Origin: Candidatus Bathyarchaeota archaeon | GTDB lineage: Archaea > Thermoproteota > Bathyarchaeia > Bathyarchaeales > DTEX01 | Assembly (NCBI GenBank): GCA_025059045.1 | Contig: JANXEA010000009.1 | Coordinates: 1-53,857 of the forward strand | Direction of reading: 5' to 3' | Length of the DNA stretch: 53,857 bases | Shown here: positions 19,726 to 52,995 of the stretch, piece after piece | Layout: every line of letters starts with the position of its first letter | Position numbering within the stretch: the stretch's first letter is position 1 | Made by a program: the position numbers and the translations under genes | The notes under the pieces: generated by a model | Seen by the model: only the letters and a program-made list of their open reading frames with translations | Databases searched by the model: none | Told to the model about the DNA's origin: nothing

Positions 19726-19763
19726 GAACGTTATAGAAAATTATATATATTAATGTAACGTTC
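19726..19763. promoter_or_regulatory. Inverted repeat around the TATA region of the RHH-ftsZ2 pair
   Basis: GAACGTTA (19726-19733) and TAACGTTC (19756-19763) are perfect inverted copies separated by 22 bases. The core AACGTT is itself palindromic. The spacer contains a TATA-like TTATATATATTAA (19741-19753). The site lies about 70 bases before the RHH gene and could be an operator for that protein. Binding is inference. Confidence 0.5.
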
Positions 19764-19833
19764 ATGATTAAAACATAATTAAATCATATTATGTACACAT
19801 TTATGAAAAGAATCTCGTGAGTATTCTCCGGTG

Positions 19834-20004
19834 ATGAACATGAAGTTAATAACAATATACCTTCCCGAGCCATACCTTGAGGCACTCGATGAGCTTGTGA
19901 CAAAACGATATTATCCACATAGAGCGGAAGCAATCAGAGTTGCGATACGGGACTTGATCGCCATGGAACTCTGGGGAAGAGAAAAAAATGCCAAAGATAG
20001 CTGA
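19834..20004 (+). CDS. Tiny ribbon-helix-helix regulator upstream of ftsZ (CdrS-like)
   Basis: This is a 56-residue protein, MNMKLITIYLPEPYLEALDE then RAEAIRVAIRDLIAMELWGR. The first strand (KLITIYLPE) and the two helices with R-A-E-A-I-R form a complete ribbon-helix-helix DNA-binding fold with almost nothing added. Its last 17 bases overlap the start of ftsZ at 19988. In haloarchaea the small RHH protein CdrS is encoded immediately upstream of ftsZ2 and controls cell-division genes; size, fold and position match here. Start ATG 19834; ATG 19840 would drop two residues. Orthology to CdrS is inferred from synteny and fold, not shown. Confidence 0.8.
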   Translation: MNMKLITIYLPEPYLEALDELVTKRYYPHRAEAIRVAIRDLIAMELWGREKNAKDS

Positions 20005-21088
20005 TAAAGTCTTTCAGCTAGCCTGGGATGATAGTATTCCGGAGGGTGTCAGAGAACCGGGACAATGCCGAATTATGGTCATCGGAGTAGGCGGAGCGGG
20101 CAATAACACCGTAAGTCGATTGATGGAATCCGGAGTAACATGCGCGGAGTGCGTTGCAATTAATACAGACATGCAGCATTTGAGGGCTATTCACGCCAAA
20201 CAGAAGATTCTTATCGGCGAGAAGCTGACGCGCGGCCTAGGCTCAGGAGGCGACCCTGAAATAGGAAGGGCTGCAATTGAAGAATCTGCAGAGCAAGTAT
20301 CGAAGATCCTTGAAGGCGTAGACATCGCCTTCATAACTGCAGGGATGGGTGGTGGAACAGGGACAGGTGCTTCACCAATAGTGGCTAAAATGGCTCGAGA
20401 AAAGGGGGCAATTGTTATTGGAGTTGTGACAATGCCCTTCAAGATTGAGCGGGGAAGAATCGCCTATGCCATTAAAGGTCTCAGCGAACTGAGAAAGGAA
20501 TGTGACACAGTTATAGTTATTGATAATAATAAGTTAATGCGCCTTGTACCACAACTTCCTATCAACGAAGCTTTCAAAGTAGGAGATAATGTATTAGCTA
20601 ATATGATTGCAGGTATAAGTGAAACCATAACCGCGCCCAGTCTAATAAATCTAGACTTTGCAGATTTCAGAACAATAATCAAGAAGGGCGGGGTAGCAGT
20701 CGCAGGGATCGGTCAATCCGATGCACCAAATAGGGCTGAAGAGGCTGTTCAAAAGGCTTTAAGGATGCCTCTCTTAGATGTGGATTTCACGGGTGCAAAG
20801 GGCGCACTCATACACGTGTCTGGAGACGAAGATATGACAATTGATGAAGCAAATAGGGTAGGCGAAATAGTCACACAAATGATGAGTGAGGATGCTCTGG
20901 TCATATGGGGAGCAAGAGTTAATCCCAACCTCGCCGGCACACTAAAAGTTACATTAGTGATGACTGGGGTTCAATCGAAATATTTACTTAGTGGTTATGG
21001 TTCCGCCGCGCGTGAAGTATACGACCTAAACTCTGAAGAAGATATGCCTCAAACCTTAAAGCCTAACATAAGCTTGTGTCACATCTAG
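19988..21088 (+). CDS. ftsZ2: Cell division GTPase FtsZ (FtsZ2-like)
   Basis: FtsZ polymerises at midcell with GTP. Tubulin-fold landmarks are VIGVGGAGNNTVSRLMESG, the signature loop AGMGGGTGTGASPIVAKMA, and the T7 synergy loop NLDFADFRTI with its catalytic Asp. The NTDMQHLRAI region and the ending VMTGVQSKYLL resemble haloarchaeal FtsZ2, agreeing with the RHH gene in front. Length 366 is usual. The C-terminal tail is short and lacks the basic amphipathic end seen in the second FtsZ at 51.6 kb. Translation is probably coupled to the RHH gene through the 17-base overlap. Confidence 0.93.
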   Translation: MPKIADKVFQLAWDDSIPEGVREPGQCRIMVIGVGGAGNNTVSRLMESGVTCAECVAINTDMQHLRAIHAKQKILIGEKLTRGLGSGGDPEIGRAAIEESAEQVSKILEGVDIAFITAGMGGGTGTGASPIVAKMAREKGAIVIGVVTMPFKIERGRIAYAIKGLSELRKECDTVIVIDNNKLMRLVPQLPINEAFKVGDNVLANMIAGISETITAPSLINLDFADFRTIIKKGGVAVAGIGQSDAPNRAEEAVQKALRMPLLDVDFTGAKGALIHVSGDEDMTIDEANRVGEIVTQMMSEDALVIWGARVNPNLAGTLKVTLVMTGVQSKYLLSGYGSAAREVYDLNSEEDMPQTLKPNISLCHI

Positions 21089-51099: not shown

Positions 51100-51297
51100 T
51101 CATTCCGAGCTTTCCTTTAATGCACCCTCATATTTCTCAAATAATAATTCAAGCGCCCTTCTGAATGCTTCAGCTCTACTCGAAAATATCCTTTTCACTT
51201 CAATAAGCTGCTCAAGTTTTCTTAGATACTCATTTGAGATGCCTAGCTTAACCACGATCTCCTCATAATCCTTTGTCTCGCTTTCTTTTTCTCCCAA
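51100..51297 (-). CDS. Small ribbon-helix-helix protein divergent from ftsZ1
   Basis: This is a 65-residue protein. EEIVVKLGISNEYLRKLEQL and SSRAEAFRRALELLFEKYEG fit a ribbon-helix-helix: strand, helix, turn and helix with the R-A-E-A-x-R pattern also present in the 56-residue RHH protein at 19.8 kb. It is read away from ftsZ1 across a 258-base gap containing nested palindromes. Start TTG 51297 has no clear ribosome site. It is probably a transcription regulator of itself and perhaps ftsZ1 (inference). Confidence 0.7.
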   Translation of the reverse strand: MGEKESETKDYEEIVVKLGISNEYLRKLEQLIEVKRIFSSRAEAFRRALELLFEKYEGALKESSE

Positions 51298-51377
51298 CGG
51301 TATTACCTCATCGGAGCTAATTCTACTAATTTATTTTTATCTTTTGTCTATATAAGGGTTGTTGAAAAGGAACCTTT

Positions 51378-51413
51378 CTAATAACTTTTTGGTTCACTAA
51401 AGTTATTAGTGAA
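51378..51413. promoter_or_regulatory. Two overlapping perfect palindromes between the RHH gene and ftsZ1
   Basis: The first has arms CTAATAACTTT (51378-51388) and AAAGTTATTAG (51399-51409), 11 bases each, spacer 10. The second has arms TTCACTAA (51393-51400) and TTAGTGAA (51406-51413), spacer 5. They share bases, so only one could form or be occupied at a time. The site is 80 bases upstream of the RHH start and about 140 upstream of ftsZ1. Operator role is inference. Confidence 0.55.
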
Positions 51414-51497
51414 TAAATCAATTTAATATACCTTTTAGCACTATCTTTTAATATAGAGTTCACCTTACGATAAACCAGGTGTTTACCTTTAGAAAAC

Positions 51498-51507
51498 CTT
51501 AAATACA
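51498..51507 (+). promoter_or_regulatory. TATA-like box for ftsZ1
   Basis: CTTAAATACA lies 48-57 bases before ATG 51555 in the gap upstream of ftsZ1. With the usual TATA-to-start spacing the transcript would have a leader of about 25-30 bases. Confidence 0.4.
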
Positions 51508-51554
51508 CATGATGTCACAGTATATGGCGATATAACAAAAATTGGGAAAAGGGT

Positions 51555-52688
51555 ATGCATATGGAGAAAAGTGTTGAAGAGATTGTAAAAAGAGCCGTTT
51601 CAGAAAAGACTATTGAGGATATTGCCAGAGAAGCTATTCCAGCAATTTCTGTGCTGGGCGTTGGTGGGGCAGGTTGCAACATTGTTTCATGGATGAAGGA
51701 GAAGGAAGTCGCTGGGGCTAAGATCTATGCATTGAATAGCGATGCAAAGCACTTAAGCATAACAAAGGCTGACAAAAGAGTTCTTCTGGGCTACAATGTT
51801 ACAGGCGGGCTTGGATGCGGAGGGTTCCCTGAGATGGGTTCGAAGGCAGCTGAGGAAAGCGCTGAGGAGATTGAGAGGCTCATCGCAGGGTCAGGCTTAG
51901 TATTCATTACAGCTGGTCTTGGAGGAGGAACAGGAACAGGCGCTTCACCAGTTGTAGCCAAGATTGCTAAGGACATGGGTGCACTGACGCTGGCTGTTGT
52001 CACAATTCCATTCCAAGTAGAACGTGCAAGACTTATTAAAGCAAAGGAAGGTCTCTCAAGGCTCGTAGAGGCTTGTGACGCAGTGATTGTGATAGACAAC
52101 AATAGACTGAGAAAGGTCGCTGGTAACCTTCCATTATCTGAGGCCTTTGGAGTTGCTAACGAGCTTATAGCGACGTTCATAAAGAATATCTCCGAAACAA
52201 TCGCGATTCCAAGCTTAGTTAACTTGGACTTTGCGGATCTCAAAGCGATCATGACTGGAAGCGGAGTCTGCGCAATGGGGGTTGGAGAGGGAATGGGAGA
52301 CACAAAGGTTGAAGACTCAATCGAGAAGGCGCTTAATACACAGCTACTCGACATCGGTGACATAAAGAAATGTGAAGGAGCATTGGTACACATCGAGGGC
52401 GGCGACGATATGACATTAGAAGATGTTACGAGAGCAGGAGAGATTGTTGTGAACAGAATCTCGCCAACTGCAAGGGTTTCTTGGGGCGCACGTGTGAACA
52501 GCAAGATGCAGGGATCAATGAGAGCAACAGTGGTTCTGGCAGGTGTCGAAAGTCCGTTCCTAGTCGAGGGACTTGCCCCCTTCGGTGGACTTAAGCCGGC
52601 AGGAGAAAAACTGGAAGTAGAAGTGGCTAAGCAGCCTCCAGCGGAAGCGGAAAAGAAGAAAGGCCTATTTGGAAGAATGTTTGGTTAG
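51555..52688 (+). CDS. ftsZ1: Cell division GTPase FtsZ (second copy, FtsZ1-like)
   Basis: This second tubulin-fold FtsZ is clearly diverged from the 19988 gene. SVLGVGGAGCNIVSWMKEKE, the signature loop GLGGGTGTGASPVVAKIAKD and the T7 loop NLDFADLKAIM are intact, so it should bind and hydrolyse GTP. An extra N-terminal helix (EEIVKRAVSEKTIEDIAREA) precedes the GTPase. The tail has a PPAEAEKKKGLFGRMFG end, a linker plus basic-amphipathic peptide that could contact the membrane or a partner such as SepF; no sepF gene is in the window. ATG 51555 has AAAAGGGT upstream; ATG 51561 is also possible. Confidence 0.93.
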   Translation: MHMEKSVEEIVKRAVSEKTIEDIAREAIPAISVLGVGGAGCNIVSWMKEKEVAGAKIYALNSDAKHLSITKADKRVLLGYNVTGGLGCGGFPEMGSKAAEESAEEIERLIAGSGLVFITAGLGGGTGTGASPVVAKIAKDMGALTLAVVTIPFQVERARLIKAKEGLSRLVEACDAVIVIDNNRLRKVAGNLPLSEAFGVANELIATFIKNISETIAIPSLVNLDFADLKAIMTGSGVCAMGVGEGMGDTKVEDSIEKALNTQLLDIGDIKKCEGALVHIEGGDDMTLEDVTRAGEIVVNRISPTARVSWGARVNSKMQGSMRATVVLAGVESPFLVEGLAPFGGLKPAGEKLEVEVAKQPPAEAEKKKGLFGRMFG

Positions 52689-52695
52689 ATTTGGA

Positions 52696-52716
52696 GCTGC
52701 GGCTTTTAGCCGCAGC
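52696..52716 (+). terminator. GC-rich hairpin plus T-run after ftsZ1
   Basis: GCTGCGGCT (52696-52704) pairs perfectly with AGCCGCAGC (52708-52716) around a TTT loop. ATTTTT follows at 52721-52725. It lies 8 bases after the ftsZ1 stop and ahead of GAGGTG, the ribosome site of the next gene. It could terminate or attenuate transcription or protect the ftsZ1 3' end. Confidence 0.6.
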
Positions 52717-52737: not shown

Positions 52738-52995
52738 ATGACAGATATAATAATCTCCGCGATTTTGGTGTTCGCCGTTATAGCTCTCGTAATCTTGATA
52801 GTAGCGACTTTCAAGGCTTTCAGGTCACCGACGATATTTTATGCTTCTGGAGAGAAGTCAGATGAATTAATCTCTAGGCTTAGCTGCCCAAGGTGTCGAT
52901 CTAGAAGTTTGAAGGCAAGCGGCCCCTACACAATTGAATGTGAAAGTTGCGGCTTCACCTTTAGCGTTGGAGTAGTGAAGGCTAGAGAAGCCTAA
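52738..52995 (+). CDS. Small membrane protein with zinc ribbon
   Basis: In this 85-residue protein, residues 1-28 are one membrane helix (DIIISAILVFAVIALVILIV). A short linker follows, then a zinc ribbon, SCPRCRSRSLKASGPYTIEC plus ESCGF, with four Cys in CxxC...CxxC spacing, facing the cytoplasm. I recognise no named family. ATG 52738 has GAGGTG seven bases upstream. It follows ftsZ1 after 49 bp, with a hairpin between them. A link to division is suggested only by position. Confidence 0.7.
   Translation: MTDIIISAILVFAVIALVILIVATFKAFRSPTIFYASGEKSDELISRLSCPRCRSRSLKASGPYTIECESCGFTFSVGVVKAREA

Follow-up and report, generated by a model that had tools for sequence, protein, structure and literature searches.

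The DNA analyzed here, referred to as the window, is a whole contig (C9; 53,857 nucleotides) from the genome of a Candidatus Bathyarchaeota archaeon, which is 1.42 Mb in size and 98% complete. The relatives with which it was compared are also Candidatus Bathyarchaeota. Open reading frames and base composition revealed a small gene of the ribbon-helix-helix (RHH) type on the minus strand, here called RHH1, and an ftsZ gene on the plus strand. The two are transcribed divergently and share a gap of 257 bp with a G+C content of 30%. A preliminary description of this DNA had placed a divergent RHH gene beside the second ftsZ of the window and given its product 65 residues, and both statements agree with the reading frames listed in Table 1. 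The start codon of ftsZ may be at either 51555 or 51561.

Table 1. Positions of the features discussed in the text, numbered from the first nucleotide of the window.
Feature	Position	Strand	Evidence
RHH2, cdrS-like RHH gene overlapping ftsZ2	19831..20004	+	Pfam RHH_1, 32.6 bits
ftsZ2	19988..21088	+	Pfam, tree
Conserved repeat array upstream of RHH2-ftsZ2	19757..19805	.	15-locus alignment
RHH1, 65-aa RHH-type protein, TTG start	51100..51297	-	ORF, orthologues, selection, Pfam RHH_1
RHH1 core promoter, TATA box CTTATATAG (minus-strand reading)	51348..51364	-	Block kept in 11/11 aligned gaps
Perfect palindrome 1, 11-base arms CTAATAACTTT / AAAGTTATTAG, 10-base loop	51378..51409	.	Exact
Perfect palindrome 2, 8-base arms, 5-base loop	51393..51413	.	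Overlaps palindrome 1
ftsZ core promoter and upstream box TACCTTTAGAAAACCTTAAATA	51484..51505	+	Conserved in the 11 gaps
ftsZ, assigned to a third archaeal lineage	51555..52688	+	Pfam Tubulin, 148.5 bits; FtsZ_C, 80.9 bits; tree
85-aa protein, predicted N-terminal transmembrane stretch and C-terminal zinc ribbon	52738..52995	+	

The gene had been labeled ftsZ1. In our tree, its product grouped in one clade with other FtsZs of Bathyarchaeia and with extra FtsZs of Methanoperedens, and canonical FtsZ1 was split from this clade with a support of 100/99. Joining the window FtsZ to canonical FtsZ1 was rejected by the AU test (p = 5e-5), which was set up after a first tree had been seen. Since the gene falls outside the FtsZ1 clade, the "1" of its label should be dropped; on phylogenetic grounds we assign it to a third archaeal FtsZ lineage, which branches on the FtsZ2 side. 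It resembles canonical archaeal ftsZ1 in being an archaeal FtsZ paralogue with GTPase and C-terminal domains. However, canonical ftsZ1 has secE and translation genes nearby (PMC8178401, PMC9871819), whereas neither secE nor translation genes adjoin the window gene, which lies between RHH1 and the gene for a zinc-ribbon protein predicted to span the membrane. At two reference FtsZ1 loci (L164 and L167), a SecE-like gene scored 17.8 and 17.5 bits, below the cut-off of 22.7. Earlier work reported divergent FtsZs from this region of archaeal phylogeny, as well as RHH_1 genes beside ftsZ2 (PMC9871819).

Two observations concern relatives of this FtsZ in other groups. Methanoperedens genomes contain 8 to 9 FtsZ-domain matches each (L045, 4956-6203; L173-L182 in G163 and G164), many of which belong to the lineage of the window ftsZ; at its C-terminus, the L045 protein has a hydrophobic segment resembling a transmembrane stretch. 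In other Bathyarchaeia families (L018, L019, L021, L025, L026, L027, and L029), a related ftsZ is divergent to a gene whose conserved product is about 140 aa long (FVGNDLHLVIKD...), differs from RHH1, and has no significant Pfam match.

The TTG start of RHH1 is backed by an orthologue that carries ATG at the same position. Its orthologues (n = 11) are 72 to 79% identical and have 34 invariant columns. Nonsynonymous change was low (pN, 0.09 to 0.22) and synonymous change near saturation (pS, 0.79 to 1.04), as is seen under purifying selection. The window protein scored 17.9 against Pfam RHH_1, for which the cut-off is 20.5; three orthologues scored above it (L034, 21.6; L035, 21.1; L157, 25.8) and another (L037) scored 15.1. 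When the RHH1 and RHH2 families were compared by hhalign, they matched over 37 columns with a probability of 94% (E = 1.2e-7). The conserved segment RIFSSRAEAFRRAL matches the turn and second helix of RHH proteins, and the RAEAxR pattern, which had been noted as common to both RHH proteins of the window, is present as RAEAFR in RHH1 and RAEAIR in RHH2. Judged by its sequence, RHH1 is a real gene of the RHH type.

The structural evidence was less uniform. An AlphaFold monomer of RHH1 consisted of one long confident helix (pLDDT 90, pTM 0.50), while the control, RHH2, gave two helices and an extended N-terminus, the layout expected of an RHH protein. The RHH1 profile found only chance matches in the PDB, plus one weak match to CopG (E = 0.22). 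Because the sequence profiles favor the RHH fold and the single predicted helix is unlike the control, we consider the fold of RHH1 likely, short of proven. The single helix would also suit a small helical protein that acts directly on FtsZ, as a filament partner or anchor adaptor, instead of binding DNA. Strict co-inheritance with FtsZ would fit such a partner too, as would the missing SepF: a search of the window genome for SepF (PF04472) gave no match at E 0.001, and archaeal control genomes matched. Nevertheless, single-chain AlphaFold models are unreliable for intertwined dimers, and the Pfam scores of the three orthologues, the hhalign comparison, and the fit of RIFSSRAEAFRRAL all argue for an RHH protein. 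We consider a direct partner of FtsZ unlikely.

We compared the distribution of RHH1 with that of its ftsZ. An RHH1 profile search of 163 genomes of the order returned 12 strong matches (111 to 133 bits), with the next best at 28.8 bits, and extending the search to the class (257 genomes) yielded no further strong match. The 12 matches come from 11 genomes, exactly those with this ftsZ lineage, and a genus of the same family (g2) has neither gene. Eleven of the 12 are divergent neighbors of ftsZ; the other, in G078, is at a contig end. This answers in the affirmative the question of whether the adjacency is kept in relatives, and in nearly all relatives carrying both ftsZ genes, each has an RHH gene beside it, as had been described for the window. 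Similarities between FtsZ proteins and between RHH1 proteins were also paired (Mantel r = 0.41, p = 0.0026). Moreover, G069 holds two ftsZ copies, each beside an RHH1 of its own type: in both genes, copy b pairs with G043 (FtsZ, 91%; RHH1, 97%) and copy a with G084 and G039 (FtsZ, 88 and 84%; RHH1, 87 and 89%). Thus, RHH1 and this ftsZ are inherited together as a single divergently transcribed module, even through duplication. Two ftsZ copies lack an adjoining RHH1 (L040 in G043 and L162 in G039), and both genomes hold an intact module elsewhere; L040 still has its promoter boxes. A copy in G072 (L036) starts at a contig end, where RHH1 may have been cut at its start codon. In G002, which belongs to another family (L157/L123), RHH1 and this ftsZ are 79 to 81% identical, and its ftsZ2 is only 69% identical; these values hint at either transfer or mixed binning.

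The genes past RHH1 vary between lineages and include aro genes (chorismate mutase), a TIM-barrel gene, and a radical SAM gene. The pair is therefore not kept by general synteny, and it is the pair itself that is retained. The same variation bears on whether RHH1 is a ParD-like, antitoxin-type RHH protein that lies beside ftsZ by chance. Small archaeal RHH proteins are often annotated as ParD, and the top structural matches of the RHH2 model were ParD antitoxins. Yet no toxin-like partner is conserved among those changing neighbors, and a toxin-antitoxin pair would not be expected to stay so strictly linked to a single ftsZ lineage, which leaves this explanation highly improbable. Near-constant pairing with an extra ftsZ in one group of Bathyarchaeia instead suggests that RHH1 is a dedicated switch.

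The gap contains the two perfect palindromes of the preliminary description. The arms of palindrome 1 lie at 51378-51388 and 51399-51409, and those of palindrome 2 at 51393-51400 and 51406-51413; because bases 51399-51400 and 51406-51409 are common to both, the two cannot form together, as had been claimed. A perfect arm of at least 11 bases with a loop of at most 10 occurred in 0.33% of dinucleotide shuffles of the gap, and the whole window has two such repeats against about 0.05 expected, so the palindromes are more than chance. The palindromes lie upstream of the TATA box of RHH1, some 21 bp away, and the arms contain AACTTT, a string also found in the conserved promoter boxes. These properties would suit a main operator in which mutually exclusive bound states act as a switch. 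However, the palindromes are missing from all 10 other RHH1-ftsZ gaps retrieved, even though the RHH1 proteins are so similar, and the G002 gap, at only about 150 bp, has little room for them. The palindromes are private to this one genome, and their absence from relatives is an outcome that the preliminary description had itself named as refuting. We rejected them as conserved operators and regard their role as the main operator as quite unlikely; the arms may be a lineage-specific extra binding site.

What the relatives conserve instead are two core promoters with AACYTT-like boxes. On the RHH1 side, the TATA block in relatives reads RATAAYTYTTATATAYC on the minus strand, and on the ftsZ side it reads AACYTTNRGAAAGCTTTATAT. 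In the window, the TATA boxes are near 51348 and 51498, the core promoters are about 140 bp apart, and an AACYTT-like box precedes or overlaps each of them. When the genome was scanned with the family pattern of the ftsZ promoter, the best match was the promoter itself; no other targets stood out genome-wide, with 11 matches against 12 for a reversed control pattern. AACYTT, a motif picked after the gaps had been inspected, occurs 18 times in the gaps against 5.4 expected, a count reached in 0 of 500 shuffles. Most of the excess stems from two positions close to the promoters, which the gaps have in common by descent, and part of it may be ordinary BRE/TATA sequence. By our reading of the counts, no clear excess is left without the promoter-proximal sites, and we therefore keep AACYTT as a candidate only.

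The other ftsZ of the window offers a comparison. RHH2 lies upstream of ftsZ2 on the same strand, also in the relatives fetched. The TATA box there is closely followed by a repeat array, in which CATRTTTAAAACATATTT is joined by additional copies spaced about 11 bp apart; the repeat reads CATRTTTAAAACATATTTATATCATATTATATACATATTTA in relatives, and the array is kept in 15 loci from several Bathyarchaeia families. The array is likely the auto-operator of the cdrS-like RHH2, and it probably illustrates how a conserved RHH operator is built in these genomes. A search for RHH2 repeat targets elsewhere gave 5 weak matches, with a strict pattern that misses the window's own degenerate copy. No array of this kind is present in the RHH1-ftsZ gaps; the RHH2 repeat is missing from them, except that G072 has two single half-sites, and it was rejected as a shared operator.

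These data also bear on whether RHH1 could be a recent copy of CdrS/RHH2, with both proteins controlling both ftsZ genes through one operator. Both adjoin ftsZ genes and carry RAEAxR, and CdrS of Haloferax volcanii binds upstream of ftsZ1 (PMC8406309). But the RHH1 profile gives RHH2 16.5 bits, below several other RHH proteins, which reach up to 28.8 bits, and the absence of the repeat from the gaps also counts against a common operator. We consider this explanation very unlikely. Taking the CopG strand of established RHH structures as a guide, we infer that RHH1 and RHH2 differ at the positions likely to touch bases, which would fit separate operators. Since RHH1 failed the tests of both same-strand layout and closest relation, we did not file it as CdrS.

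Downstream of the window ftsZ, the gene for the 85-aa protein, whose transmembrane stretch was read from sequence, is kept in most relatives, and its product is a possible membrane partner. A G+C-rich perfect hairpin (GCTGCGGCTTTTAGCCGCAGC, 52696-52716) lies just past the ftsZ stop and before the zinc-ribbon gene; it is possibly a terminator or a processing site. The C-terminus of the window FtsZ has a conserved KKGxFG[RK]xFG-like tail that could itself bind the membrane. The known archaeal FtsZ anchor is SepF (PMC8178401).

Together, these comparisons lead us to favor, with reasonable though not full confidence, the view that RHH1 is a transcription factor dedicated to the adjoining divergent ftsZ and that it probably also regulates its own gene. 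RHH1 dimers would bind AACYTT-like half-sites just upstream of or over both TATA boxes, and the level of RHH1 would set transcription of both RHH1 and ftsZ. Repression by blocking TBP/TFB seems slightly likelier than activation from upstream. Next to the conserved cdrS-like operon of RHH2 and ftsZ2, the cell would thus have the RHH1-ftsZ module as another RHH-ftsZ unit, and the operators of the two would differ. More generally, and only tentatively, each archaeal ftsZ paralogue might have an RHH regulator to itself, the two moving and duplicating together as a self-contained, orthogonal module with its own operator, giving these Bathyarchaeia two separately wired FtsZ units, apparently without SepF. 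To our knowledge, haloarchaeal CdrS is the main known case of transcriptional control in archaeal division, and we know of no cultured genetic model in this lineage; the RHH1-ftsZ gap provides a defined, testable control region. Here, another RHH family with only distant similarity is co-inherited with a different FtsZ lineage in a divergent arrangement, which suggests that control of ftsZ by RHH proteins originated or was rewired on more than one occasion.

The module resembles divergently transcribed autoregulator-target pairs, whose two genes have one control region in common between them; it differs from such pairs in that its target is a tubulin-family division gene and the regulation is a proposal. 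Its closest parallel is the cdrS-ftsZ2 operon of Halobacterium and Haloferax, in which the RHH protein CdrS regulates ftsZ2 and also binds upstream of ftsZ1 (PMC7439475, PMC8406309). A parD gene frequently adjoins ftsZ2 (PMC8178401). The RHH2-ftsZ2 pair of the window matches this already published arrangement. The RHH1-ftsZ module is like the operon in having a small RHH gene beside an ftsZ whose product lies on the FtsZ2 side of the tree, and a role in ftsZ transcription is plausible for RHH1 as well. Unlike cdrS, RHH1 is divergent and not co-transcribed with ftsZ, has a different promoter box, represents a separate family only distantly similar to the CdrS-like RHH2, and belongs to a module restricted to 11 of 257 Bathyarchaeia genomes. 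In our best reading, RHH1 and its ftsZ would be a variant of the theme known from cdrS-ftsZ2, set apart by its operator and by the divergent orientation of its genes.
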